This document shows, piece by piece, positions 1-11,272 of a stretch of 11,272 nt of DNA; position 1 is the first letter of the stretch; the number at the start of each line of letters is the position of its first letter. Under the pieces are notes generated by a model. The model had not been told where the DNA came from and did not search any database. It saw only the letters and a program-made list of their open reading frames with translations. Source of the DNA: Candidatus Desantisbacteria bacterium CG1_02_49_89 (lineage in GTDB: Bacteria; Desantisbacteria; UBA1551); the NCBI GenBank assembly GCA_001871075.1, contig MNUP01000001.1, forward strand, positions 1-11,272, written 5' to 3'. The translations under genes and the position numbers were made by a program.

Positions 1-106
1 TTTTCTGCTCATCCTTTAAAACAATAATCTTTCTGTTGGGGATAAGACATACGGTTACTTCCTGCTCTGGAAATCGTCCTACTTTCCAGGTTCTGCCTTC
101 GAGAGT
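1..106 (-). pseudogene. possible transposase C-terminal remnant, running off the left edge
   Basis: A minus-strand frame stays open from about position 178 to the window edge. Its last third reads like a small beta-rich domain (EGRTWKVGRFPEQEVTV, then CLIPNRKIIVLKDEQK). This loosely resembles the beta-barrel end of DDE/Mu-type transposases, where a G+.+.VGR segment precedes a V.V..... pattern. There is no start codon in a sensible place, and the upstream part of the frame is made of the C/G-rich palindrome at 110-163, so no intact gene is present here. It could equally be a chance frame or the end of an unrelated gene continuing beyond the edge. The assignment rests on impression only. Confidence 0.2.
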
Positions 107-109
107 ACC

Positions 110-163
110 CACCCCCCTCACCCTACCCCTCTCCCTCGAGGGGAGAGGATAAAGGAGAGGGTG
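110..163. repeat. C/G-rich palindromic intergenic repeat
   Basis: A CCCTCACCCTACCCCTCTCCC tract faces a GGGAGAGG..AAAGGAGAGGG tract. The inner stem is CCTCTCCC (128-135) with GGGAGAGG (141-148) around a 5-base loop, and the outer arms continue with mismatches. Repeats of this 'CCCTCACCC...GAGAGGGTGA' type are scattered through intergenic spaces of many bacterial genomes. It lies about 100 bases beyond the terminator of the SBP operon and shows no sign of a gene. Confidence 0.7.
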
Positions 164-214
164 ATTATTACCTGATTTTTAAACCAGCCAGCCTAAATAA
201 TTTTCCCCCGGCTA

Positions 215-252
215 TGTGACACTTTGATTGTTCCCAATGTGACCTTTTGATT
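215..252 (+). repeat. two 15-bp direct repeats, possible IS-end remnant
   Basis: TGTGACACTTTGATT (215-229) and TGTGACCTTTTGATT (238-252) differ at two positions and start 23 bases apart, separated by GTTCCCAA. Short direct repeats of this kind near a TGT... terminus resemble the repeated transposase-binding sites at ends of IS21-type elements. No IS genes lie to the right, so this could be a solo end or a regulatory repeat. The family assignment is an inference. The rest of 1-344 holds only the palindrome at 110-163, the terminator and no further recognisable feature. Confidence 0.4.
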
Positions 253-265
253 ATTTCCGCACAGG

Positions 266-298
266 AAAAATAAAAAACCGCCATAAAAGCAGGCGGGA
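266..298 (-). terminator. intrinsic terminator of the tonB-HEAT-SBP unit
   Basis: Read on the minus strand, CCGCC (296-292) pairs with GGCGG (282-278) around a 9-base loop and is followed by TTTTTTATTTTT. It sits 47 bases after the stop codon of the binding-protein gene. Stem, loop and T-tract are all visible and in the right order for Rho-independent termination. Confidence 0.8.
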
Positions 299-344
299 TT
301 TTCAAGGATAAAACCCACGTTTAATCTCAGTGACGAAGAAAAAA

Positions 345-1184
345 CTAGCGCAAGGACCTATCGGAACCGAACCACTTGTTAAAGATCTCGATGTATCTTT
401 TCGAGAGCTTCAGCTCGGAAATAAGCGCGTTGAACCACGGTATGCAATGCCATTCCTCGCTTTTCTTGGTCTCATCAGAACCCTTGGGGAACATCACGCA
501 GTAGAAATCCTGGCTTAGCCTGCCCGGGACCACCCTGTAACCCGTATGCTCCAGGCATATATTTTCGGCAAGAAGGCCGTCGCACACGAAAGCGTCCGCC
601 TTCTCCCTTAAAAGCATCGAGAACGCTTCAGCCTCGTCCTTTACTATGCTTATGCCCGCGTTCTTGAACTTCCTGTTCGCGACCTGCTTCCCGCGTGTCC
701 CTTCAACCACCGCTATCCGCACGCCCTGTTTGTCCAGAGCGTCGCAGCTTTTCACATCCGGTCCCTTTTCGGTGACGATAACTGCCTGGCCCGACTGGAA
801 ATACGGCTCGCTGAACCTGTAAAAGACTGCCAGGTCAATGGTTCTCGGCGCGCCTGAAAGCACGATATCGCACTCCGGATTCTCAAGAAGGCCTTCGGGC
901 TTGATCTCAATAAGGCTGAGTTTCACACCCAGCATGTCCGCCAGCTCCGCGGCGATGTCAGCGTTGAACCCTGTAATGTTTCCCTGTTCGTCCGCAAACG
1001 CAAACGGAGGGCAGCCTGTGACCACGCCCACTTTTATCTCTCCGTTGGCGATAACGTCTGAGATCAGGTCCTGGGCATCTGCGACTGCCAAAGGAAAACA
1101 TAATACCGCTGCCGCAGCGGCGATCATCAAAAATTCCGCTGGGGAAAATTTTCGGGCCAAAATAGTTCTGTTGTTCTTTTTCAA
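345..1184 (-). CDS. periplasmic amino-acid-type ABC transporter substrate-binding protein (SBP_bac_3 family)
   Basis: The 279-residue product begins with a positively charged stretch and a hydrophobic core (about residues 17-34), with likely signal cleavage after VADA (residue 37). The mature part follows family 3 binding proteins: GEIKVGVVTGCPPFAF, then G.ITGFNADIAAELADMLGVKL, then a D-I-V-L-SG segment, a FSEPY motif and a late GTRGKQVA hinge region. Such proteins capture polar amino acids or similar solutes for an ABC importer; no permease or ATPase is in the window, so the ligand and partners are unknown. The start is TTG (1184-1182), one base after the stop of the HEAT gene, with GGGAG six bases upstream. 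An alternative ATG 19 codons later would shorten the signal peptide. The mature chain has seven cysteines, unusual for this fold. It is the last gene before the terminator at 266-298. Confidence 0.88.
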   Translation of the reverse strand: MKKNNRTILARKFSPAEFLMIAAAAAVLCFPLAVADAQDLISDVIANGEIKVGVVTGCPPFAFADEQGNITGFNADIAAELADMLGVKLSLIEIKPEGLLENPECDIVLSGAPRTIDLAVFYRFSEPYFQSGQAVIVTEKGPDVKSCDALDKQGVRIAVVEGTRGKQVANRKFKNAGISIVKDEAEAFSMLLREKADAFVCDGLLAENICLEHTGYRVVPGRLSQDFYCVMFPKGSDETKKSEEWHCIPWFNALISELKLSKRYIEIFNKWFGSDRSLR

Positions 1185-1185
1185 A

Positions 1186-2580
1186 TCAGTCTCCCGGCTC
1201 GATCTCGGGCATCCCTATGGTTATCTTCCCAGGAGGGAAGTATACGTATTTATAATAAAGCCTTGTAATCCGGCCTTTACCCGCGCACGTAGGGCAAATA
1301 CCCGAACCGCCGCACCACCCGCAGGTAAAAGGCATGAGCATCGCGCTGACCGTTTTCCCGCTGCCCCCGCACCCCGGGCAGGCCTTTGCGCCGCCGCACA
1401 CGGGGCATGTTATTTCTCTGCTTGAACTTTCCTTTTTTACTTTCCCGCCGTAATACTGCTCAAGCGCCTGCGCTGCCCTGGGGCGGTACGCATCATAATT
1501 CAGCAGTTTTGTCAGGAACTGCAGGGTTTTTTCCTCCCCGAACTTCGCAAGGAAGAACGCGTTTTTCAGGCGCGCGTCAAAACTTCCCTCTCTTTCAACC
1601 ATCTTTCTTCCTGCCTGCTCTATCGCTGATTTACCCATTCTGCTCAGAGATCCTGCCGCGTAATTCCTGATCTCCCCGCTGGCGTCATCCATGGCTTCAA
1701 GCAGCGCGGGAACCGCGGAAGTATCCCCGATAGTACCCAGCGCTTCGGCAGAATATTTCCTTTCCTCTTCGTTTTTGCTCCGGTCGCCCAGGTTATCCGC
1801 CAGCGCAATGACCGCGGGTTTACCGAGTTTTGCCAGCGATATGACTATGTATTTTCTGATGTCTATGCTCCTGTCATCAAGCGCTTTTATAAGGGCCGGG
1901 ATAACCGCGGTATCTTTGGTTTTTTCAAGCGCTTTGCCCAGGGCTATCGCGGCGTACATCTTCGTGCTTCTCGCAGACAGCGCCTTCAATAACGCGGGAA
2001 CCGCGGCCTCGCCCATATTTCCGAGCACGTAGGCAGCGCTTACGCGCAGCGCTACTTCCCTGTCTTTCCTGAGCACACCGCTAAGCACCGTTATCGCGGC
2101 CGTGTCTCCGATCTTACCCAGGGAGGTTATGGCGCGCTCCCTATTCGCGGCAACCTTGTCCTTCAGGGCTTCTGCCAGGGCAGGAACCGCGGCAGGGCCG
2201 CCTATCTCGCCCAGGATCTCGGCGGTGAGCCCCCTTATTTCTTTATCAGGGTCCTTCAGCATCTTTGCCAGGACCGGGGTTATGGAACTGTCGCTGAGCC
2301 TGGCAAGGGCCTCAACGGCGGATCTTCTTACAGCCGCGGAACCGTCTTTAAGCGCGTCAACCAGCGCGGTGATCGCGGACGCGTCTCCGTTTTCGCCAAG
2401 GATTTCCGCCGCGCGTTCCCTCACCTTGCTATTTTCATTTTTCAGCAGGTCAAGCAAAACAGGCAGGGGAACGGTATTGCCGATCTCCTCGGGATTTACA
2501 ATTCCCGCGCTGCGGGACGAAGCCGGCGCATAGACGCAGAAAAGCAACAAAAATATTATAATACCCGCGATCCTTTTCAT
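1186..2580 (-). CDS. exported HEAT-repeat protein with two DnaJ-like zinc clusters
   Basis: The 464-residue product starts with a Sec signal (MKRIAGIIIFLLLFCVYA). Residues about 30-380 are nine or ten HEAT/PBS-lyase-type helical repeats with the pattern 'A+PAL..AL.D....+R..AA..LG..G', a scaffold for protein binding. The C-terminal 76 residues change character: C392-x2-C395-x5-C401-x2-C404 and C420-x2-C423-x5-C429-x2-C432, each within CxxCxGxG-like sequence as in the DnaJ cysteine-rich domain. The clusters should bind two metal ions or act in thiol chemistry. ATG 2580-2578 is preceded by AGAGGAAGAGA, a good ribosome site, and lies 33 bases after tonB; the TGA is one base from the next start. 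A zinc-finger module on a protein predicted to leave the cytoplasm is odd. Its specific function is unknown; a periplasmic assembly or chaperone-like scaffold is an inference. Confidence 0.85.
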   Translation of the reverse strand: MKRIAGIIIFLLLFCVYAPASSRSAGIVNPEEIGNTVPLPVLLDLLKNENSKVRERAAEILGENGDASAITALVDALKDGSAAVRRSAVEALARLSDSSITPVLAKMLKDPDKEIRGLTAEILGEIGGPAAVPALAEALKDKVAANRERAITSLGKIGDTAAITVLSGVLRKDREVALRVSAAYVLGNMGEAAVPALLKALSARSTKMYAAIALGKALEKTKDTAVIPALIKALDDRSIDIRKYIVISLAKLGKPAVIALADNLGDRSKNEEERKYSAEALGTIGDTSAVPALLEAMDDASGEIRNYAAGSLSRMGKSAIEQAGRKMVEREGSFDARLKNAFFLAKFGEEKTLQFLTKLLNYDAYRPRAAQALEQYYGGKVKKESSSREITCPVCGGAKACPGCGGSGKTVSAMLMPFTCGWCGGSGICPTCAGKGRITRLYYKYVYFPPGKITIGMPEIEPGD

Positions 2581-2613
2581 TCTCTTCCTCTTTTACTCAT
2601 CCGGAATGGAAAT

Positions 2614-3210
2614 CTAGCGGTTTATATTATACAATACAGGGATCTTGATCGAAAGGGCGTATCTCATTGGCGACGGGGGAAAAGGCGCGGCGCTTTTCAC
2701 GAGCTGCACCGCATCATCATCCAGAGATTTAGACCCGGAAGACTTTGCCACATCAATGCCCGCAACGCTTCCGTCACGCAGGATCTTGACCTTCAGGATA
2801 ACTTCGCCTTCTTCCTCTCTGTCATAAGCTTCCTTAGGGTATTTCCTCCTGGATTTAACGTCGTTCAGCTTCTGCAAGATCAGGCCCAGGTAGGGATTCA
2901 TTATCTCGCTTGTCAGATCGCTGGAAATCTCGGGTTGGGCCGGCTCTTCAGGCTGGGAGACTGCCTGCTCAGGTTGCGGCTCGTGCGTGAAATTATCGGA
3001 TATCTCTTCCCTTGCAGGCTCTTTTGGGACCTCTATCTTTTTTTGTTCTTCCGGAGGTTTATCGGGAGGCGGCCTGCGCAGGCTCATAAGGTCCACCTCG
3101 ATAAACTGCGCCGCGGTATTCGGTATTGTCAGGTTTATCGCGCTTGTGAGCATCAGCAGGTGAACGCCCGCTGAAATTCCCAGGAAAATGTAAAACCTTC
3201 TATTAAGCAA
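2614..3210 (-). CDS. TonB-family energy-transducing protein
   Basis: The 198-residue product has the three parts of TonB. First, an N-terminal membrane helix (residues about 6-27) contains S13-x3-H17 (ISAGVH), equivalent to the Ser/His pair in TonB needed for proton-motive-force coupling through ExbB-ExbD. Second, a Pro/Glu/Lys-rich periplasmic spacer spans about 45-98. Third, a C-terminal TonB domain (about 105-198) has the YP motif (KYPKEAYD), GEVILKVKILRDGSV, SSGSKSLDDDA and PFPPSP. It should carry energy from the inner membrane to an outer-membrane receptor or machine. No exbB, exbD or TonB-dependent receptor is in the window. The start is TTG (3210-3208), preceded by AAAGGGG at good spacing; the first ATG lies inside the membrane helix and is implausible. 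It is the first gene after the promoter at 3243-3270. Confidence 0.9.
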   Translation of the reverse strand: MLNRRFYIFLGISAGVHLLMLTSAINLTIPNTAAQFIEVDLMSLRRPPPDKPPEEQKKIEVPKEPAREEISDNFTHEPQPEQAVSQPEEPAQPEISSDLTSEIMNPYLGLILQKLNDVKSRRKYPKEAYDREEEGEVILKVKILRDGSVAGIDVAKSSGSKSLDDDAVQLVKSAAPFPPSPMRYALSIKIPVLYNINR

Positions 3211-3242
3211 TTATTTCCCCTTTCTTTTAATAGAGGTAGTCT

Positions 3243-3270
3243 ATTATATACTATTACATGGAAATGTCAA
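3243..3270 (-). promoter_or_regulatory. consensus sigma-70 promoter for tonB-HEAT-SBP
   Basis: On the minus strand, TTGACA (3270-3265) is followed by 16 bases and then TATAAT (3248-3243). Both hexamers match the consensus exactly. Transcription should start near 3236, leaving a 5' leader of about 26 bases that contains the ribosome site of tonB. Such a strong match suggests high, largely constitutive expression; no obvious operator palindrome overlaps it. Confidence 0.8.
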
Positions 3271-3286
3271 GTTGAGGCGTAGCCGA

Positions 3287-3347
3287 AATCCCCCCGTTTT
3301 GATTTGCCCGAAGAGCCATCAGCTCGCAGGGAGCAAATCCGGGGGGA
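3287..3347. repeat. imperfect inverted repeat upstream of the tonB promoter
   Basis: CCCCCC (3290-3295) faces GGGGGG (3341-3346), and ATTTGC (3302-3307) faces GCAAAT (3333-3338), leaving a loop of about 25 bases. The element lies just upstream of the -35 box and resembles other C-run/G-run intergenic hairpins. No regulatory role can be read from the sequence. Confidence 0.55.
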
Positions 3348-3379
3348 GAGAAAATCCCACATTCAAACCCAGAGACGAA

Positions 3380-3418
3380 GACCCCGGCAGCTTAATTTCG
3401 CAGAAATTAGCAGGGGTC
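3380..3418. repeat. 39-base interrupted palindrome
   Basis: GACCCC (3380-3385) pairs with GGGGTC (3413-3418), and inside it TAATTTC pairs with GAAATTA around GCA, so RNA from either strand would form a long hairpin. On the minus strand it lies about 115 bases after the stop of the PorV-like gene but is not followed by a T-run, so terminator function is uncertain. Confidence 0.6.
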
Positions 3419-3473
3419 AAGAAAACAATCGGGCGTGATCCTCCAAACTGACTGGCGGACAGGCACCGCTACA

Positions 3474-3530
3474 AAATCCCCCTTAATCCCCCTTTGTCAA
3501 AGGGGGAAAACGGTTCGTTCGGGGAACGAT
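3474..3530. repeat. paired intergenic hairpins abutting the PorV-like stop codon
   Basis: CCCCCTTT (3488-3495) pairs perfectly with AAAGGGGG (3499-3506) around GTC. TCGTTC (3515-3520) pairs with GAACGA (3524-3529) around GGG. Both are of types commonly dispersed in bacterial intergenic DNA ('AATCCCCCTT...AAAGGGGG' and 'GTTCG..CGAAC'). They begin within a few bases of the stop codon of the PorV-like gene and may stall polymerase or protect the mRNA end, although no T-tract follows. The remainder of 3211-3532 contains only the tonB promoter and the two palindromes listed separately. Confidence 0.6.
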
Positions 3531-3532
3531 CC

Positions 3533-5479
3533 CTACTTAATAAGGATTATTACAACACGGCGGTTCTTTGCCCTGCCCTCGTTCGTGTTGTTGGAAGCAA
3601 CCGGCTCGTCTTCGCCGTAACCCATTGTGACCATACGGTCCCCGCCGACCCCTCTGCCGGAGAAGAACGCCCCTGCCGCGTCTGCCCTTTTCTCCGAAAG
3701 CTCGAGATTGGTTCTCTGGTCGCCTGCCGCATCGTTATGGCACTCTATTATTATCTTGTTCTTCGGATACGCTTTCAGGACATCTGTTATCCTGCCCAGG
3801 ATATCTTCAGCGGCAGCCGAAAGGCTCGCGCTTCCGGCTTCAAAAAGCGCGTCCCCCTGAACGGTCATGCTTATCTCATCCCCGGTTTCCTTTATAACCG
3901 CTCCCGCGGCCTTTGCCTCCGCCTTCGCTCTCTCCGGGTCTTTCACAGCGGATTTTACGGGCCTGGGCTCATCCTTCAATTCCATTATCTGTATCACCTC
4001 GTCCACGAATATCTGCTGTGTGTCGATCTGCAGGCCTGCGTGGTATAAGGTGATAATGGGCGCCCCTGATCTTATGTCCTTGAAGTAAAAACTCCCCACT
4101 CCGGACGTAACCGCCACAGACCTTACGTCGGACCAGGGCGCTTCCGCTTCCGAGAATTTCGCGGACCTTGACGTTGTGTAAAGCACTACTGTGTCGTTGA
4201 AATTCTTGTCCGGTTTTCCCTGCGCGTCCTGCGCGATAATGATGATCCTGGACGATATCCCGCCCAGGGTCATCCTTGTCGAAGGAGTGATAAATTTGAG
4301 AGCTGCCGCGCCTGTCTTTAGCGGAGGTGAGAATATAATGGAAAGTCCCATTCGGTGGCTCCCGAACGCGCTGTCGATCCCGGAAAAAGGATATATAAAA
4401 GCGTAATCAAGCTGGTAGCTGGACTGGTTATCCCACGGCGTGAAAACATAACTTGCGCCTGCCGTTATCTGGCGGTAACTCCTGCTCCCAAACCCGAATC
4501 CTCCGCGCACGGCAACTGGTATGCCGGAGATCCTCCATTCTATCCCGGAATTCACAAAGTAATCATATCTGCGCGAGGTAAGGTCGGCTGATACGCTGTA
4601 TTCACCCGCCCTGTAACTCACCCCGATCTTTGAGGAGCTGGAAACATAGTTGTTAACCGCGTATTCCGGATCGGGGCTCTGCAGGTTCATGTCCGGCTGG
4701 TTAAAATCCTTAAGGCAAATCCCGACCGACCAGTTCCGGCTGATAGCGACGAAGAATCCTATGTCGAAGCTTATTCCCAGAACAGACGTTCCCTTGCTGA
4801 AAAGAGGATCCTGCATGCCCTCGATCCAGTTATAATACGGGTCATACCCCCACTGGCTCTCGGCGTAATGCAGCTCTAATATTTTGAAATTAACACCGAG
4901 CGACACTCTTTCGGTCAGTTTCCGCCCATAGGAAAAAATATAGGAATTCTCGGTATAGAGAGTGGAAGCATGACGGTTTATCCAGGACACCCCCATTGCT
5001 CCGACCTTCTCGTCAAAAGGCCTGACATAGCAAAGGAACCCGTCGCCTATATCGTTTCTTTCAGCGGGATAATCAAGCCCGGGGAACAGAAGAGCGTAAG
5101 ACAACCCCATCTGGCTGTTCGTTATCTGGGCAAGGCCGGCAGGATTGTAATATGACGCCATAAAATCATCCGCAAGGCCTGTAAACGCTCCTCCCATGCC
5201 CAGGGCCCTGGGACCCATGCCGATGTCCAGGAAGGACGCGTGGCAGACAGCTGGAAGCTGGATGCTGAAAGCTGAAAGTAAAAGGAATAACAGAATTTTT
5301 AGTGCCCTTCCCTTAAATTTTACATTTTGTCGCCACTTCGGCGACCCGCCGCAGGGGCGGGACTTTTGCACTTTGTCCGCCCAGATCAAACCTGGGGCGA
5401 GATCTCGCCCTGCCTTTACGCAGGGCGGAATCCTTGAGCCATGAACCATGAGCCATGAGCTATGAGCTATTTTAATCAT
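3533..5479 (-). CDS. PorV/PorQ-like outer-membrane barrel fused to an Ig-like domain and an OmpA domain
   Basis: The product is 648 residues from ATG 5479-5477. Residues 1-53 are encoded by intergenic-type repeats. A signal peptide follows (FKGRALKILLFLLL..., cleavage probably after A81). Residues 82-393 match the PorV/PorQ (UPF0164) barrel family, with GPRALGMGGAFTGLADD and YYNPAGLAQ at the start and alternating beta strands after. Residues 394-491 form an Ig-like domain (LKFITP..., FYFKDIRSG). A charged Ala-rich linker leads to an OmpA-like domain (536-648) with HND, NLELSEKRAD and GRAKNRRV, which keeps the Asp and Arg used to bind peptidoglycan. It should span the outer membrane and grip the cell wall. 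In type IX secretion PorV receives cargo with C-terminal sorting domains; a candidate cargo is the gene just upstream. The ribosome site GAGGTG overlaps that gene's TGA, implying coupled translation. Confidence 0.82.
   Translation of the reverse strand: MIKIAHSSWLMVHGSRIPPCVKAGRDLAPGLIWADKVQKSRPCGGSPKWRQNVKFKGRALKILLFLLLSAFSIQLPAVCHASFLDIGMGPRALGMGGAFTGLADDFMASYYNPAGLAQITNSQMGLSYALLFPGLDYPAERNDIGDGFLCYVRPFDEKVGAMGVSWINRHASTLYTENSYIFSYGRKLTERVSLGVNFKILELHYAESQWGYDPYYNWIEGMQDPLFSKGTSVLGISFDIGFFVAISRNWSVGICLKDFNQPDMNLQSPDPEYAVNNYVSSSSKIGVSYRAGEYSVSADLTSRRYDYFVNSGIEWRISGIPVAVRGGFGFGSRSYRQITAGASYVFTPWDNQSSYQLDYAFIYPFSGIDSAFGSHRMGLSIIFSPPLKTGAAALKFITPSTRMTLGGISSRIIIIAQDAQGKPDKNFNDTVVLYTTSRSAKFSEAEAPWSDVRSVAVTSGVGSFYFKDIRSGAPIITLYHAGLQIDTQQIFVDEVIQIMELKDEPRPVKSAVKDPERAKAEAKAAGAVIKETGDEISMTVQGDALFEAGSASLSAAAEDILGRITDVLKAYPKNKIIIECHNDAAGDQRTNLELSEKRADAAGAFFSGRGVGGDRMVTMGYGEDEPVASNNTNEGRAKNRRVVIILIK
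5329..5476 (-). repeat. cluster of palindromes and word repeats inside the 5' end of the PorV-like gene
   Basis: Reading the minus strand, an array of about 8-base words (GCTCATGG variants, 5476-5430) is followed by five hairpins in 99 bases: CGCCCTGC/GCAGGGCG (5427-5406), the perfect palindrome GGGCGAGATCTCGCCC (5410-5395), CCCAG/CTGGG (5396-5380), CCCGCC/GGCGGG (5361-5345) and GTCGCC/GGCGAC (5345-5329). This is typical intergenic repeat material, yet it lies between a well-placed start codon and the signal peptide and keeps the frame open. Confidence 0.75.
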
Positions 5480-5483
5480 AATG

Positions 5484-5489
5484 CACCTC
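5484..5489 (-). promoter_or_regulatory. ribosome binding site that sets the PorV-like start
   Basis: GAGGTG ends four bases before ATG 5479-5477 and overlaps the TGA (5490-5488) of the upstream gene. No comparable site precedes a usable in-frame start near the signal peptide: the ATG at about 5325 is out of frame and followed at once by TAA. Confidence 0.65.
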
Positions 5490-6750
5490 ACTTTGCCAGT
5501 ATTATTATTCCTTTCCATGTATCATAGCCTACCTTGGCCTGCCATATATAGATGCCCGCGTCCGCGGGATCGCTCCTGCCGGCACCCTCAAAATTGTAGT
5601 TCCCATCCCATGAGATCCATGACATTCCCTGAAGTATTTCCTTCCTATAGACCTTTGCTCCGTTAAGGTCGTATATTTCAAACACCCCTGCTTCCTGGGC
5701 AGCGGGGAACTTGAAGTAAGCAGCGTCGCTGTATCCGTCACCGTTCGGCGTGAACGGATTGGGGAAAGCGCCGTAATTGGGGAACCCGGGCTCCTGCTGC
5801 ATGCTGAGGTCCGCAACCGCCCAGTAAGACAGGTTGTAGGTCTGCGAGGTTACCGTCTGCGCGGCCATGTCTATGACGCTATGTATCCTCATCCACTTAT
5901 CGCCAAGCCATTTGAAATTAGAAAGCCTGCGCGGTATGTCGTCCACCTTGACGGAAGTCCCCTTGACCTTGCCCCTGTAAATATCATACGCGAACCTGAG
6001 TTCCAGCGGGGCCGAGAACTCGGTGATGTACGTCGAGGTGCCGAAGACCTTGCAATAAACCTCACAGAAATTCGCCAGGCCCTTCTTAGCCCACGCCGGT
6101 ATCGGCAGCTCGTCAAGCGAAAGGAGCTTGATGTTCAGCACCACCATGCCGGTCGAAGCCCCGAAAGCGGAATCCGGCCTGGGTATCCTGAGCAGGACCC
6201 TTGAATCTCCCTGCGCCACAACCTCTATGGTCACTGAATCCGGGGTTGACGCGCTGAATATACCGCCTTCAGTGCTTATGCCGGTCGGGACCGGATCGGA
6301 AAGATCTCCGGCCTCATAATCCGTCCTTAAAGCGAAAACCGAATAGCTGTAGATCGTGTCCCCGGCGACCTGGGAATCCAGGTACGTGTCGCCGTACACT
6401 AAGAACGACACCGTGCTCCCGTCCGGATTGGTCCTTATTATGCAGTAGGTTTCCACCGCCATATCAGACGAGAACATGAGCAGTATCCCGGTATCGCCGG
6501 CTGTGAGCCTGGCCTGGACAGTGGAGATGCCGGAGACCGGTTTCCCGGCAAGAAGCACACCGGCCGCAGTGTCAGAACCGGACAGCACCGGAGCGTTGCC
6601 GCCAATCCAGTAAACGCCGGTGCAGGTGTTGGTTATAAGCACTGCCGCCCCTGCCTCTTCGGCGGGCGGTCCAAACAGGCCCAAAATGGGTATGCCTGCC
6701 CCAAGCGCTGTTAGAACCAGGCCCAGGATAAGCGTCTTTCTGAAACTCAA
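5488..6750 (-). CDS. secreted FN3-like protein with a FlgD/T9SS-type C-terminal sorting-like domain
   Basis: The 420-residue product starts at TTG 6750-6748, six bases after AAGGAG; a frame-open extension to 6801 lacks a ribosome site. A hydrophobic signal (residues about 4-28) is followed by ITNTCTGVY (39-47) and LSGSDTAAG, almost the same as the mature N-termini of the two small DUF11 proteins encoded upstream. Residues about 95-155 look like a fibronectin III domain (Y.IIRT...SFLVYGDTYLDS....TIYSYSVFA). A beta-rich middle region runs to NLSYWAVADLS. Residues 327-420 are a FlgD-like/gliding-motility C-terminal domain: FPNPFTPNGDGYSD, FEIYDLNGAKVYR, WDGNYNFEG, AGIYIWQAKV and the end KGIIILAK. 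In Bacteroidota such domains target proteins through PorV to the type IX translocon. Whether this one is cleaved or anchored is unknown. The stop overlaps the ribosome site of the PorV-like gene. A GGTGGTCT/AGACCGCC hairpin lies just before the ribosome site. Confidence 0.82.
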   Translation of the reverse strand: MSFRKTLILGLVLTALGAGIPILGLFGPPAEEAGAAVLITNTCTGVYWIGGNAPVLSGSDTAAGVLLAGKPVSGISTVQARLTAGDTGILLMFSSDMAVETYCIIRTNPDGSTVSFLVYGDTYLDSQVAGDTIYSYSVFALRTDYEAGDLSDPVPTGISTEGGIFSASTPDSVTIEVVAQGDSRVLLRIPRPDSAFGASTGMVVLNIKLLSLDELPIPAWAKKGLANFCEVYCKVFGTSTYITEFSAPLELRFAYDIYRGKVKGTSVKVDDIPRRLSNFKWLGDKWMRIHSVIDMAAQTVTSQTYNLSYWAVADLSMQQEPGFPNYGAFPNPFTPNGDGYSDAAYFKFPAAQEAGVFEIYDLNGAKVYRKEILQGMSWISWDGNYNFEGAGRSDPADAGIYIWQAKVGYDTWKGIIILAK

Positions 6751-6756
6751 ATCCCT

Positions 6757-6762
6757 CTCCTT
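6757..6762 (-). promoter_or_regulatory. ribosome binding site supporting a TTG start
   Basis: AAGGAG six bases upstream of TTG 6750-6748 decides the start of the FN3/FlgD-type gene; the following codons give a basic n-region and hydrophobic core as expected of a signal peptide. Confidence 0.65.
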
Positions 6763-6873
6763 AAGGCGGTCTTTGGGCAGACCACCCCTGTTTCCCGTCA
6801 ATCTCGCTATGAACTTAGTATAAGTGCGGAACCAGATTGCCTTTTTCTGTTAAAGGATCAACGGTTTAGTGAC

Positions 6874-7006
6874 TGTCATTGCGAACGGCAGTGAAGCAAT
6901 CCGACGAAGTCGTTGCGAGCGATAGCGAAGTCCCGAAGGTCCCAACGGGATCCCTTTGGGACAATCTCATGTCTGGATTGCCACGGGCTTCGCCCTCGCA
7001 ATGACA
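6874..7006. mobile_element. MITE-like inverted-repeat element, copy 1 (133 bp)
   Basis: The ends are TGTCATTGCGA (from 6874) and TCGCAATGACA (to 7006), with matching inner blocks GAAGCAATCC and GGATTGCC. The interior carries a second palindrome, GTCCCAACGGGATCCCTTTGGGAC-like, at 6939-6962, centred on GGATCC. Elements of the 'GTCATTGCGAG...GAAGCAATC' type are dispersed as non-coding palindromes in many bacterial genomes. No coding content is visible. A second copy occurs at 7827-7921. Confidence 0.7.
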
Positions 7007-7028
7007 AACAATACTTCAAACTTCTCCG

Positions 7029-7093
7029 TTCCTTAAGTCATTTTTAAACAGTCTTATGTTAAAAGGTCCTTGGGACCTTTAATCTTCTTAAGG
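7029..7093. repeat. 65-bp palindromic element, copy 1
   Basis: It is bounded by CCTTAAG and CTTAAGG and contains AAAGGTCC/GGACCTTT around a short loop. By hand alignment it matches 57 of 65 positions of copy 2 (7984-8048) without gaps. On the minus strand it lies 89 bases after the stop of the 7183-7680 gene. No T-tract follows on that strand, so terminator function is doubtful. Confidence 0.8.
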
Positions 7094-7105
7094 CTCTAAG
7101 AATCG

Positions 7106-7180
7106 GCTGAATGCTGGATGCTGAATGCTAAATGCCGAATGTTATTAAACATCCAGCTTCCAGCATATAACATCTAGCTG
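7106..7180. repeat. word-repeat hairpin after the second small DUF11 gene
   Basis: The left arm (7106-7141) repeats GCTGAAT/GCTGGAT words about every 8 bases, and the right arm (7150-7180) carries the reverse complement words (CATCCAGC, TTCCAGC), so the two arms form an imperfect stem. It begins two bases after the stop codon, matching the position of the hairpin after the other small gene, but uses different words. Confidence 0.7.
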
Positions 7181-7182
7181 AG

Positions 7183-7680
7183 CTAGTCGACGGTTGCCCT
7201 GAAGCTGAACACTCCGTTCCCTGCAGGTCCGGGGTCAGATCCCGCAACACCGGTAGCCGTATACTGAACTGTGGCACCACCGGTATATGAAACCTTTACC
7301 CCGTTCGCGATCGTGTCACCTGACATACTGCTGTAAGTGAATCCCGCGGGCACATAGTCAGTCAGCGCCATTGTGTCAGAAGCCGCCTCTCCGCTGTTAG
7401 ACCAGACAACCGTGAACTCCACGGTGTCTCCCGAAAGGATGTTCACGCTTCCCCCGCTTGTCTGCCCGGTGCGCAGGTTCGTGATCGACTTCGCGATCGT
7501 CAGGGCAGGAAGACCCTGAAGACGCCCTATCGCGTTATCTGAACCCGACAGCGCTGCCTCCCTTCCCACAACCTCATACTGCCCGGTGCAGGTGTTCGTT
7601 ATGTCCGTCGCTGCCATTACCGGACCCGCAACCAACGCCAATCCGACTGCTACCGCCAAAACCATAAACACTTTACACAT
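7183..7680 (-). CDS. small exported DUF11-domain protein (paralogue 2)
   Basis: The 165-residue product starts at ATG 7680-7678, where AAAGGAGG lies four bases upstream; a longer frame to 7737 runs back through word repeats and has no ribosome site. A signal peptide (MCKVFMVLAVAVGLALVAG) is cleaved probably after VMA, giving a mature start ATDITNTCTGQY. Residues about 57-165 form a DUF11/TIGR01451-type beta domain: ALTIAKSITNLR, ILSGDTVEFTVVWSNSGEAASDT, LTDYVPAGF and the end GVFSFRATVD. The usual last DUF11 strand ('tNtatv.y') is missing at the C-terminus but appears at the N-terminus. The single cysteine of the mature chain is in NTCTG. It is a clear paralogue of the 8174-8683 product. Likely a surface structural subunit; a fibre role is inferred from the strand arrangement. 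Confidence 0.85.
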   Translation of the reverse strand: MCKVFMVLAVAVGLALVAGPVMAATDITNTCTGQYEVVGREAALSGSDNAIGRLQGLPALTIAKSITNLRTGQTSGGSVNILSGDTVEFTVVWSNSGEAASDTMALTDYVPAGFTYSSMSGDTIANGVKVSYTGGATVQYTATGVAGSDPGPAGNGVFSFRATVD

Positions 7681-7700
7681 CCTACCTCCTTTAAATTTTT

Positions 7701-7800
7701 GGAACTTGTTACTTGAACCTTGGAACTTGAACCCCACAAACCACTGACTGTTACTTGAAACTGTTATTTACTGATTATTGGAAGAATTGTTACTAACTAC
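7701..7800. repeat. word-repeat tract upstream of paralogue 2
   Basis: GGAACTTG, TTACTTG and related 7-9 base words recur from 7701, followed by CCACTGACTGTTACTTG and diffuse variants to about 7800. The same words begin 22 bases upstream of the other small gene (8705). No consensus promoter can be picked out within it. Confidence 0.6.
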
Positions 7801-7826
7801 TGAATTTCGCAAAATAGATTTACAGC

Positions 7827-7921
7827 TGTCTTTGCGAGTCCCGACAAGCCGGGACGAAGCAATCTCGTTTTTAACGACGGGATTGCCACCCCGCCACGAA
7901 TATTGGCGGGTCGCAATGACA
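7827..7921. mobile_element. MITE-like inverted-repeat element, copy 2 (95 bp)
   Basis: It runs from TGTCTTTGCGA to TCGCAATGACA, with inner GAAGCAATCTC and GGGATTGCC blocks that match copy 1 at 6874-7006, and additional hairpins (GTCCCG/CGGGAC and CCCGCC/GGCGGG). It is shorter and has a different interior from copy 1. It lies at the same place relative to the duplicated gene as copy 1 does, so it may have been duplicated with the gene rather than inserted independently. Confidence 0.7.
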
Positions 7922-7983
7922 TCAAAAAGCATCAACCAATTAAGGGAAAACCAGTAAAGTGAGTTTTTCTCTCGATTTTTGCA

Positions 7984-8048
7984 TTCCTTAAGCCGTATGT
8001 GAATAGTCTTATGCTAAAAGGTCCTTGTGACCTTTAATCTTCTTAAGG
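7984..8048. repeat. 65-bp palindromic element, copy 2
   Basis: It has the same length, CCTTAAG/CTTAAGG borders and AAAGGTCC/GGACCTTT core as copy 1 at 7029-7093. It sits 125 bases after the stop of the 8174-8683 gene. The outermost 9 and the last 20 bases are identical between copies; differences cluster between the border and the core. Confidence 0.8.
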
Positions 8049-8066
8049 TTTAATTTTCCCAACTTT

Positions 8067-8170
8067 AATTATGAGTTATGAATTATGAGTTATGAATCAA
8101 CAACAAGGAGTTTTTTTAAATATAAATTCCATGCCTTTAATTCATAATTCAGCATTCATAATTCATAATT
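8067..8170. repeat. word-repeat hairpin after the first small DUF11 gene
   Basis: The left arm (8067-8097) repeats ATTATGA/GTTATGA words of 7-8 bases. The right arm (8139-8170) repeats ATTCATA, the reverse complement, separated by a 41-base A/T-rich loop. On the minus strand it begins three bases after the TAA of the gene and could form a long imperfect mRNA hairpin at the 3' end. Confidence 0.7.
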
Positions 8171-8173
8171 GCG

Positions 8174-8683
8174 TTAGTTGACGTTCACCCTAAAGCTGAA
8201 CGCGCCCTGAGCCTTCGCACCCGGGTCTGTTCCAGCCGCTGCAGTGCAGGAGAAAGTGATCATCCCGCCTGATTCGGATATCGCCGGGTTCGTGCAATTC
8301 TGCGCGCTGGTGAAAGTCTCGGTGCCTGTGATGAACGTCATGCCCGAAGGCACATAGTCAGAAAACACGACCGTATCCGCAGATGCCTCCCCGTCGTTTG
8401 ACCAGGTGATGTCGAACTGAAGCGTGTCACCTGAAAGCATATTGACGCTGTTCGGATCAGACTGACCTGAACGCAGGTTGTTGATAGACTTCGCTATCAC
8501 AAGCGCCGGGCTTACCTGAAGCCTTCCCACAGCCGTGTCCAGGCCTGACAGAGCCGTTGAGAGCCCTGTCACCGTGTACTGCCCGGTGCAGGTGTTTGTG
8601 ATGTCCGTCGCTGCCATCGCCGAACCCGCAACCAGGCCAACCAACAAACCAACTACCAAACCAACCACCATTCTGTTAAACAT
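8174..8683 (-). CDS. small exported DUF11-domain protein (paralogue 1)
   Basis: The 169-residue product starts at ATG 8683-8681, preceded by AAAGGAGG. The signal peptide (MFNRMVVGLVVGLLVGLVAG) ends at SAMA, so the mature protein begins ATDITNTCTGQY, as does its paralogue. The rest (about 58-169) is a DUF11/TIGR01451-type beta domain: ALVIAKSINNLRSGQ, MLSGDTLQFDITWSNDGEASADT, FSDYVPSGM, FITGTETFTS and the final GAFSFRVNVN. The domain stops where canonical DUF11 domains would continue into a 'tNtatv' strand; that strand is instead at the mature N-terminus. Three cysteines occur in the mature chain (NTC, QNC, FSC). Only about 200 bases of word repeats separate it from the large gene upstream. 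It is probably a surface subunit; no enzymatic motif is present. Confidence 0.85.
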   Translation of the reverse strand: MFNRMVVGLVVGLLVGLVAGSAMAATDITNTCTGQYTVTGLSTALSGLDTAVGRLQVSPALVIAKSINNLRSGQSDPNSVNMLSGDTLQFDITWSNDGEASADTVVFSDYVPSGMTFITGTETFTSAQNCTNPAISESGGMITFSCTAAAGTDPGAKAQGAFSFRVNVN

Positions 8684-8704
8684 ACTGCCTCCTTTTGTAT
8701 TTGT

Positions 8705-8880
8705 GGAACTTGTTACTTGGAACTTGTTACTTGTTACTGGAAACTACTGACTGTTCAACTCAACAAATTGTTCAATTCAATGATCGTTCAGATCAAATAG
8801 TGGTTCAAATCAACTGAATGTTCAAGGATTTCTTGAAGTCAACTTTTAACTTTTTTTTAACCTTTAACTTTTAACCTGTT
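8705..8880. repeat. three successive word-repeat tracts between the large and small DUF11 genes
   Basis: GGAACTTGTTACTTG words occupy 8705-8740. A looser tract of GTTCAA/TTCAATTCAA words follows to about 8830, and AACTTTTAAC/CCTTTAAC words reach 8880, ending at the stop codon of the large gene. Each tract drifts from word to word rather than repeating exactly. No CRISPR-like fixed repeat and unique spacer pattern is present. Confidence 0.65.
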
Positions 8881-11272
8881 TTAATCGATCGTTACCCTGA
8901 ACCTGAACGTGCCTGTTTCGCCCGCTGAAACGCTGTTCGCGTTGAATATAATCCCGCCCGCGTTTTCATTGACGCTGCCCTTGCCGGAAGTCACTGTTTC
9001 GCTTCCTGTCACAAAAGCGGTGCCCGGGGAAAGAGAATCAGTAAGAGTAATGGTTTCGGCCGGCCCGCCCTCGCCTGGCTGAGCCCAGTCGATCCTGAAT
9101 TCTATGGTATCCCCGGTGAGCATGCTGACCATTGTGTCGGATTCAGTGCCCGACCTGATATTCATTATGTATTTCTTGATCGAGATCAGATGGGCAGTAT
9201 AGGTCGCGTTTACCGTATTACTGGAAGGCCCGGCCTTCGTGTCTTCTCCCGAAAGGTTATTAAATATCTTGACGACCGCGCGATCCTCAACTGCCGGCAT
9301 ACCGGAAGAGCATGCCATCCTCACGCGCAGATTTACCTCCTTTGTCTGCAAGATCCCCAGGGCACTGAGCTTCCAGCGCACTCCTTTCACATCTACCGCA
9401 TCCTGGGCCGGGACGCTTCCCCAGGATTCCCAGTTAACGCAGTTCGGATCAATCGTATATGACCACGAATCCGCCGCGGGAGACGTATCCATTCCGGCAA
9501 AAACCAGCGGATGGTTTACGGAAGTATCAAACGCCGCGGTATCATACACTACCACGGCGGTCGCGGTTTCAGTGCCCGAGTTGTAAATTGAGACTGAATA
9601 CTCTATGGTGTCCGGGGAAAGCGCGTATATCGGGGAGGTTGTGGAATCTCCGTGGGAAGGATTTGTCCTGATATTTCGCTGGTGTTTGTAGACAGAAAGG
9701 ACAGGGCCTGTTATCGTCTCGGACTGGCTGTCTGAAAGGTCCTGGGCAACAATTGTTAACGTGGAGGTTCCGCTCCTGGCATCCCTGTAGTAAAAGGTGC
9801 TTACTCCTGACGCGAAGGTTACGACCGTTGTGTCTGACCATGGGGCAGCGGACGCCGAGAACCTGCCTTCGGGCGAGCCTGATGAAAGCGCTGCCGTGCC
9901 GTTGAAAGTGGTGTCTGTCTCCCCGTAATACTGCTCCGCGATGACAGTGATCATCGGAGAGGTCTCATTGCTCCTGATGGTGAACGCGTAGGAAGTAATG
10001 CTGACTGACGCGGAAGAAACTATCAGAACATGGGTCGCTTCCTCAACGTCTGACTCCTCCCTGGACGCGGAAATAACGGGAAATCCGGTCTTATAGTCTT
10101 TGTAATAAAAATTCCCCTGGCCGCTCACAAAAGTAATATAAGTGTCCGCGCCTGCAGGCGTCCAGGAAATGCCGTCGGTGGAAAAACTTCTGCTGTCAGA
10201 ACTGCCGGTTAGCGCGACAGTCTCGTTGAACTGAACGTCTGTGTCTCCATCCGGGTTGTACGCGACAAGATTTATTACAGAAGACGTGGCGCCTGATTTG
10301 ATAGTCTGTTCCGGAGTGATGAATTTCAGGGTGTCGCCTTTCATCCTGAACACTTCCGAGCACTGCGTGGAACCCCCCGTATTTGTCACTGTAACGGTCC
10401 AGAACCCATACGTATCTGTCCCAACGCCGTTGTATAAATCCAGGAATATCCCCTGGACATCGGTCTTTATCGTGGTGTTCTTTCTCACCGCGCCTGCGGG
10501 GTCCTTCCAGATGGACCTGTAATCCGTATTGGGCGTCAGTCCCCAGGCTTTTGAATATATCTTCTGCCCTATGGCAAAGTCAACCTGCTCTATCGTGCGG
10601 TCAGCATCCCGGTAAGTCCTGACGTCAACGACCGAAGATTCAATCGTTGTGGTCTCTGACTGAAGGGGCCAGGAAGGATATACTGAACTTACTATGGTGT
10701 TCCCTGAATTCGCGTCCTTCGCGTCGAGCGAAACTGTGTCTTTTATCAGGGTCTTGAAGGTTTTTCCTTTCGGAGCTGTCGGGGAGAAACTCAGGAACAC
10801 GTCAATTATAAGGGTTTCTGCCTGGTTTATTGTCTTCGGGTCTCCCGAGAAATTGATCGCGGCATTCGTTCCCTCGGGCATGGATATGGTCTGCAGTATG
10901 ACGCCTGCGCCGTTTTTCACGACCATTGAATCCAGAACGTCCGTTATAGAGGTATCATTGTTGTTCTTGTCCCTGAAAGAGAGGACGAAAGAATAAACCT
11001 TTACGGCTGCCCCGCCTGCGGGGGAGGTATTGGCAAAGAAGAATCTCTGCGATCTTACGTTGTACTGCCCCTGTCCGACCGTGTCAGGCATATAGTTCTG
11101 TGCAGTGCTTCTCAGGGAAGGGGTGCTCTGGATTGTTACCGCACTGCTTGCGAGCGGCCAGGAGGGAGAAACATAACTCAGAACAGTGTCCCCGGAAACT
11201 GCATCCCTCGCGTCTATTGCCGCCGCGGTTTCAACCATTGTCTTAAGCGTCAGCCCGGCTGCTGCGGTGTCG
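8881..11272 (-). CDS. large multidomain exported surface protein, 5' end beyond the window
   Basis: The frame is open through the right edge, and the residues before the first ATG (11238) belong to a repeated domain, so the true start lies outside. In the 796 visible residues: 1-50 and about 162-211 are the same end-of-domain segment (KT......DA.DA.SG.T......PSWPL), part of a repeat of roughly 160 residues; 212-310 is a beta domain opening VVDVRTYRDADRT; 314-404 and 423-512 are two Ig-like domains (FYYKDYKTG and FYYRDARSG) closely related to the one in the PorV-like protein; 524-690 is a complete DUF11-like domain; 694-796 is a second DUF11 domain (KKYIMNIRSG, MLTGDTIEFRIDW) ending TFRFRVTID at the stop. 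No transmembrane helix or sorting domain is seen at the C-terminus. It is probably an extracellular adhesin or fibre component; the substrate is unknown. Confidence 0.85.
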   Translation of the reverse strand, partial: DTAAAGLTLKTMVETAAAIDARDAVSGDTVLSYVSPSWPLASSAVTIQSTPSLRSTAQNYMPDTVGQGQYNVRSQRFFFANTSPAGGAAVKVYSFVLSFRDKNNNDTSITDVLDSMVVKNGAGVILQTISMPEGTNAAINFSGDPKTINQAETLIIDVFLSFSPTAPKGKTFKTLIKDTVSLDAKDANSGNTIVSSVYPSWPLQSETTTIESSVVDVRTYRDADRTIEQVDFAIGQKIYSKAWGLTPNTDYRSIWKDPAGAVRKNTTIKTDVQGIFLDLYNGVGTDTYGFWTVTVTNTGGSTQCSEVFRMKGDTLKFITPEQTIKSGATSSVINLVAYNPDGDTDVQFNETVALTGSSDSRSFSTDGISWTPAGADTYITFVSGQGNFYYKDYKTGFPVISASREESDVEEATHVLIVSSASVSITSYAFTIRSNETSPMITVIAEQYYGETDTTFNGTAALSSGSPEGRFSASAAPWSDTTVVTFASGVSTFYYRDARSGTSTLTIVAQDLSDSQSETITGPVLSVYKHQRNIRTNPSHGDSTTSPIYALSPDTIEYSVSIYNSGTETATAVVVYDTAAFDTSVNHPLVFAGMDTSPAADSWSYTIDPNCVNWESWGSVPAQDAVDVKGVRWKLSALGILQTKEVNLRVRMACSSGMPAVEDRAVVKIFNNLSGEDTKAGPSSNTVNATYTAHLISIKKYIMNIRSGTESDTMVSMLTGDTIEFRIDWAQPGEGGPAETITLTDSLSPGTAFVTGSETVTSGKGSVNENAGGIIFNANSVSAGETGTFRFRVTID

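Follow-up and report, generated by a model that had tools for sequence, protein, structure and literature searches.

A DUF11 domain divided between consecutive surface-protein genes of Candidatus Desantisbacteria suggests head-to-tail strand complementation, possibly sealed by isopeptide bonds

The window considered here comprises positions 1 to 11,272 (11,272 nucleotides) of contig MNUP01000001.1 (C140), one of the 150 contigs of the 2.48 Mb genome of Candidatus Desantisbacteria bacterium CG1_02_49_89 (assembly GCA_001871075.1). On its minus strand we find, in the order of transcription, a large surface protein, two small proteins (small1 and small2), an FN3/FlgD-type protein (hereafter FlgD-type) and a protein combining a PorV-like barrel with an OmpA peptidoglycan-binding domain (Table 1). 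The first three proteins end in a DUF11 domain that stops short of its last strand, and a segment resembling the missing part is found at the mature N-terminus of small1, small2 and the FlgD-type protein. It is nearly certain that one DUF11 domain is here partitioned between consecutive genes, and we consider it reasonably probable that the proteins assemble by head-to-tail strand complementation without a chaperone-usher system, the joints possibly being sealed by intermolecular Lys-Asn isopeptide bonds. An earlier note on this DNA had proposed a donor/acceptor partition in which the gene order follows tip, shaft and base of a fibre; the terminal sequences on which it relied are all present in the window, and the partition and its order are borne out by sequence, by the ends of the PF01345 matches and by N-terminal similarity.

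Table 1. Genes and domain parts of the split DUF11 cassette (positions in the window)
Feature	Position	Strand	Remarks
Large surface protein, acceptor-only	8881..11271	-	open at window edge; last DUF11 domain stops after F strand; ends GTFRFRVTID
Penultimate DUF11 domain of large protein, in-cis last strand VEDRAVVKIFNN	9256..9291	-	probable, from sequence and alignment; contrasts with terminal domain
Terminal DUF11 acceptor domain of large protein, without last strand	8884..9189	-	Lys about 9172-9174, Asp 9037-9039
small1, donor + acceptor	8174..8683	-	ends AFSFRVNVN
Donor segment of small1, ATDITNTCTGQYTV...SGLDTAVGRLQV	8513..8611	-	Asn 8594-8596
Acceptor domain of small1	8177..8512	-	Lys 8489-8491, Asp 8357-8359
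small2, donor + acceptor	7183..7680	-	ends VFSFRATVD
Donor segment of small2	7513..7611	-	Asn 7594-7596
Acceptor domain of small2	7186..7512	-	Lys 7489-7491, Asp 7357-7359
FN3/FlgD-type protein, CHU_C-like C-terminus, donor-only	5488..6801	-	proposed base
Orphan donor segment of FlgD-type protein, AAVLITNTCTGVYWIGGNAPVLSGSDTAAGVLL	6550..6648	-	Asn 6628-6630
PorV-like barrel + OmpA peptidoglycan-binding domain	3533..5518	-	gene after FlgD-type; possible envelope partner

The C-termini of the large protein, small1 and small2 correspond to the penultimate strand of a DUF11 domain, a family that a 2025 survey renamed CLIPPER and for which it solved the structure 9IFR (PMC12617251). Canonical tandem DUF11 domains of other genomes continue from the F strand through a short loop into a last strand (consensus ...VTVTITLKVDSPASAGTELTNQAEIS, including LTNQAEIS), in which an Asn is present in 76 of 81 cases. 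In profile searches the 114 positions of PF01345 were matched only at 10-84 by small1 and at 13-54 by small2, which leaves the last part of the model unmatched in both; the match at the end of the large protein likewise falls well short of the model's final positions. Against a cut-off of 24.6 bits small1 scored 30.8 and small2 24.8, the large protein (18.4) falling below it; all three exceeded the cut-off of TIGR01451.

Behind the signal peptide, as delimited by eye, small1 and small2 begin with ATDITNTCTGQY and the FlgD-type protein with AAVLITNTCTGVY. At their N-termini, the FlgD-type protein and small2 share 59% identity over 32 residues (E 5e-11), a match that beats every shuffle and all 3370 surface-protein windows compared, the remainder of the two proteins being unrelated. 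The motif [ILV].N.[AC] is present in all ten mature donor N-termini found in the genome and in 1.0% of control 13-mers, a pattern composed with the donors in view and counted on donors of which several are paralogues. Judged against the nine strands of 9IFR, the donor segment ITNTCTGQYTV...SGLDTAVGRLQ probably spans two strands and not one; of the earlier claim that a single DUF11 strand is partitioned, the partition stands and the number of strands probably does not.

The CLIPPER structure gives this partition a chemical aspect. In 9IFR, a nine-stranded beta-sandwich, an isopeptide bond links Lys715 in the first strand to Asn806 in a late strand, with Asp748 as the presumed catalyst (PMC12617251); the strand with the Asn is therefore a terminal part of the domain whose first strand bears the Lys. 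On this ground, and because the N-terminus is left unpaired in the structure models described below, we rejected the possibility that the N-terminal strand is strand 1 of its own domain, displaced by a shifted Pfam boundary. Bonded CLIPPER members carry Lys, Asp and Asn within one domain (some DUF11 domains lack the set), whereas here the Asn strand is at the N-terminus of the partner. Within the genome the acceptor Asp is kept in 14 of 14 proteins, the acceptor Lys in 13 of the 14 (by eye) and the bonding Asn in 10 of 10 donors; in other genomes Lys and Asp are both present in each of the 14 acceptors whose Lys column was aligned. The split places the Lys and Asp of an established isopeptide site on one protein and its Asn on another, so that the joint may be covalent. 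Since there is no evident reason for Lys and Asp to be kept without an in-cis Asn if the C-terminal domains had merely decayed, a bond between proteins is suggested. We regard the chances that such a bond forms and makes the joint covalent in most pairs as evenly balanced.

Two further features of the donors were observed. In the small and FlgD-type proteins of the window, and in those of a second cluster (contigs C80 and C28; genome G000), a Cys lies two residues past the bonding Asn, a position occupied by Ala in canonical DUF11 domains; it is the sole Cys of mature small2. In addition, the DNA of the donor strand (ATDITNTCTGQ) resembles that of the first acceptor strand (AKSITNLRTGQ) in both small genes (7579-7611 and 7462-7494; 8579-8611 and 8462-8494), with 73% identity in small2, possibly as a result of internal duplication.

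The cassette is found again in the same genome. The second cluster comprises, on C80, a donor+acceptor protein of 196 amino acids, a 179-residue protein of the same type starting four bases later and a third copy truncated where the contig ends, and, on C28, a small protein, an FlgD-type protein with the donor AAIIINTCTSTY and a PorV-like gene; we infer that these contigs are neighbours. C10 carries two acceptor-only proteins and, after them, a donor+acceptor protein of 187 residues, and C112 encodes the third donor-only FlgD-type protein of the genome. An 854-residue open reading frame on C83 was considered as an acceptor-donor fusion and rejected, as the donor motif is absent and the similarity is confined to FN3/FlgD. 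At least seven further proteins of the genome end in a DUF11 domain without the last strand (F.VRVK before the stop), most of them without an adjacent donor gene. As a separate observation, five large surface proteins of up to 4275 amino acids (L109, L110, L046, L047 and L112, on C21, C71, C72, C150 and C87) share a C-terminal domain ending in GLRW.I..L...E.R.VRF.VR.K.

Close relatives are uninformative on gene order, because just one other genome of the order was examined and it contained no homologues of the small proteins. A scan of GTDB contigs placed DUF11 mainly in Bacteroidota and Verrucomicrobia, and a search of 386 genomes led to one (G384) that encodes, in a row, a 606-residue acceptor-only protein, a 181-residue acceptor, a 600-residue donor+acceptor protein and a 2012-residue donor-only protein. 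The last ends in ...GYSFDDFDSDLAGDSYWGKGPYISIKFKFD, which by eye resembles the end of an outer-membrane barrel, although no profile supports a barrel. Genome G386 has the same four genes; in the fourth, the first 290 residues are 49% identical to the counterpart in G384 and the donor Asn is conserved. A donor profile built from five donor N-termini of these other-genome cassettes matched 14 of the 386 genomes, and the neighbourhoods of the matches revealed the cassette in G262, G282 and G309, variants of it in G305, G105, G244 and G263, and single donor+acceptor proteins in G016 and G163; one candidate (G052) was rejected on inspection as a frameshifted tandem protein. In total, the split cassette is present in at least eight other genomes, in the order acceptor-only, donor+acceptor and then usually donor-only with a barrel-like C-terminus, and on inspection about 17 of the 20 donor genes in these genomes come after a gene whose DUF11 end lacks the last strand. 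The gene order of the window thus recurs, as the earlier note had suggested looking for, both in the second cluster and in unrelated genomes, and chance resemblance of the C-termini was rejected on this recurrence. We also observed that a DUF11-like protein of about 175-210 amino acids (L184, L185, L186, L187, L153, L160), often with YTHI.W and an end lacking the last strand, precedes the donor genes in most cassettes and in many cases has no Asp.

The donor and acceptor of each small protein are part of one chain, and a linker of about 25 residues could span the domain, so that the small proteins might be circularly permuted DUF11 domains whose N-terminal strand fills their own groove, with soluble monomers as the product instead of a chain. 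A precedent is provided by TasA, whose monomers complement themselves with a different strand before exchange (PMC9674648). The AlphaFold2 (AF2) models point the other way. For small1 alone (27-row alignment) residues 34-146 fold, with a ten-residue mean predicted local distance difference test score (pLDDT) of 64-96, while residues 1-33 remain below 50 without any strand of three or more residues; for small2, modelled as a read-through into the FlgD-type protein with Ser at the stops, the acceptor domain (39-144) folds and residues 1-30 are unpaired, with pLDDT near 45-50. A confident monomer completed by its own N-terminal strand, which would have contradicted the earlier note, is therefore the opposite of what was modelled. 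The models share the CnaA-like beta-sandwich fold of 9IFR (Foldseek E 7.9e-4; VIA Z 8.1-8.2, 2.4 A over 91-97 residues), as do other immunoglobulin-like (Ig) pilin domains with equally high scores, and the small1 model is resembled by the solved structure of TTHA1873 from Thermus; by sequence, small1 had no match in the PDB and the small-protein alignment matched only 9IFR, weakly. As predictions, the models speak against self-completion and leave docking in trans open, because the pair construct contained a non-native linker of about 180 residues and the alignments held almost no information on the donors. Self-completion moreover gives no account of the acceptor-only proteins (the large protein; the 606-residue protein of G384) or the donor-only ones (the FlgD-type protein; those of about 2000 residues) in the same cassettes, and we consider it quite improbable.

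The truncated DUF11 domain might instead be a secretion or attachment signal read by an export machinery, the N-terminal NTCTG-type segment serving some other function. Such a role would fit the similar ends of the at least seven further proteins mentioned above, most of which have no neighbouring donor, and the SprA-like candidate translocon described below; it leaves unexplained why the bonding site retains its Lys and Asp in the absence of the in-cis Asn, why the N-terminal motif resembles the missing strand and why donors directly follow acceptors in many genomes, and we hold it to be rather improbable. Complementation in trans could also be purely non-covalent, with donor strands filling the groove and the Lys/Asp/Asn set unreactive between chains. 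TasA fibres and the bundling pili of archaea function without bonds of this kind (PMC9674648; PMC9715654), and one of the three residues is absent in some partners, but their retention on opposite partners in most pairs makes this reading somewhat unlikely. Several observations weigh against covalent strand complementation itself. The acceptor on C71 has no Lys, the donor of a 2451-residue protein of G282 has Ser in place of Asn, and the acceptor family of about 180 residues beside other cassettes often lacks the Asp (by eye), which makes it unlikely that all joints are covalent. Scored singly, the window donors fit the last-strand matrices of DUF11 poorly, with P values that vary between about 0.03 and 0.85 according to the matrix used; it is for this reason that our argument relies on position, recurrence and synteny. 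The proteins with truncated DUF11 ends on C21, C71, C72, C87 and C150 have no neighbouring donor gene; these unpaired acceptors may take donors from elsewhere, or their ends may have an additional role. Finally, the read-through model of small2 and the FlgD-type protein, with a signal peptide in its linker, docked neither donor, both being disordered.

Regarding export, an usher (PF00577) was not matched in this genome, which is 93.5% complete, while the Escherichia coli control was, in agreement with the earlier note's view that assembly would not rely on chaperone-usher genes. The FlgD-type protein reached the CHU_C cut-off (29.6 bits against 27) and fell below that of TIGR04131 (21.5 against 35), and the PorV-like protein scored 63.6 bits against a PorV family cut-off of 90. 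Because the FlgD-type protein has a CHU_C domain and adjoins the PorV-like gene, it may be exported by a type IX route and serve as base. The genome may also encode a SprA-like type IX translocon, as a 1660-residue open reading frame matched TIGR04189 in five pieces, below the curated cut-off; the control of a Peptidase_C25 search, intended as a sign of PorU, gave no match, and no conclusion was drawn from it.

Past the PorV-like/OmpA gene the minus strand encodes a TonB-C protein, a protein with HEAT repeats and a solute-binding protein of family 3. For small2, the ATG near 7680, preceded by AAAGGAGGT, is a more likely start than the GTG at 7737. If the PorV-like/OmpA gene starts at the ATG at 5518, it overlaps the FlgD-type gene by 31 nucleotides (5488-5518), and its true start is likely to be further downstream. 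Each small gene is followed by a 72-nucleotide intergenic element (7022-7093 and 7977-8048; copies 85% identical) with nested inverted repeats (CCTTAAG...AAAGGTCC..GGACCTTT...CTTAAGG), which fits no Rfam family and could be a terminator or a mobile element. Short tandem repeats (7, 14 and 17 bp) occur in or beside the intergenic stretches of the surface genes (5435-5467, 7106-7141, 8067-8097, 8138-8170, 8704-8733 and 8746-8825).

Chaperone-usher pili, such as type 1 and P pili, are built from Ig domains without their last strand, with an N-terminal donor extension and an acceptor-only tip. The proteins of the window resemble them in combining, by sequence and in the AF2 monomer, an Ig pilin-like domain without its last strand with an N-terminal donor, and differ in belonging to another Ig family and in the lack of a detectable usher in the genome. 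With 9IFR they share the family, by profile and fold, as well as the Lys and Asp in the acceptor and the Asn in the donor; in 9IFR and typical tandem DUF11 domains, however, all strands and the Asn are part of one chain, whereas here the last strand or strands, with the Asn, belong to another protein. Usher-free exchange, with an N-terminal donor strand inserted into the neighbour, is known from TasA of Bacillus, where TapA has the donor sequence in common with TasA and is the probable starting point of the chain (PMC9674648), a role that would fall to the FlgD-type protein here; these fibres, however, belong to a jelly-roll family without an isopeptide site and to a Gram-positive host. The archaeal thread protein Saci_0406 likewise combines usher-free donor-strand complementation with a proposed intermolecular isopeptide bond, and Saci_0405, which has a donor tail and lacks an acceptor site, is its putative cap (PMC9715654). 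Its bond, in contrast, would link Asn57 to the alpha-amino group of Asp24 two subunits away, without any Lys, and it has no Pfam domain. In SpyTag/SpyCatcher and DogTag/DogCatcher an isopeptide domain is split into a strand and a catcher that react spontaneously (e.g. PMC5487036, PMC8878318). Those splits are man-made; the one reported here appears natural and is repeated along a gene cluster.

In the proposed mechanism, the acceptors would provide strands A to F with the first-strand Lys and the presumed catalytic Asp, leaving an edge open where the last strand or strands belong, and the donors would provide the missing part and the bonding Asn directly behind the signal peptide. After secretion, the N-terminal segment of one protein would fill the groove of the next and complete its fold in trans, bringing Lys, Asp and Asn together; a spontaneous Lys-Asn isopeptide bond would then probably form, by which the joint would become covalent, like an engineered tag/catcher pair. 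The acceptor-only large protein would cap the chain, small1 and small2 would be its repeatable links, and the donor-only FlgD-type protein, with its type IX-like C-terminal domain and its position beside the PorV-like gene, would tie it to the envelope. Complementation in trans is, in our judgement, likely. As for the fibre assembled in this way according to the earlier note, partition, gene order and recurrence argue for it, while the sole pair model docked neither donor; that the product would be a long fibre rather than a short chain seems somewhat doubtful.

Within the open-licence literature we found no paper proposing strand exchange or donor-strand assembly for DUF11, and the split gene cassette seems to be previously undescribed. 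Only a few families are known to build donor-strand fibres without an usher, and the split isopeptide domains known are for the most part products of protein engineering. It is possible, with the chances only slightly short of even, that several lineages use a widespread natural tag/catcher principle, assembling covalent surface chains with cap, links and anchor from gene-split CLIPPER domains through a spontaneous Lys-Asn bond, without usher, sortase or dedicated ligase. If true, this would represent an unrecognised route to covalent surface chains, repeated along the operon and in several unrelated lineages, and it would offer a role for many proteins now annotated as “DUF11” or “conserved repeat domain” as well as a source of new tag/catcher pairs.

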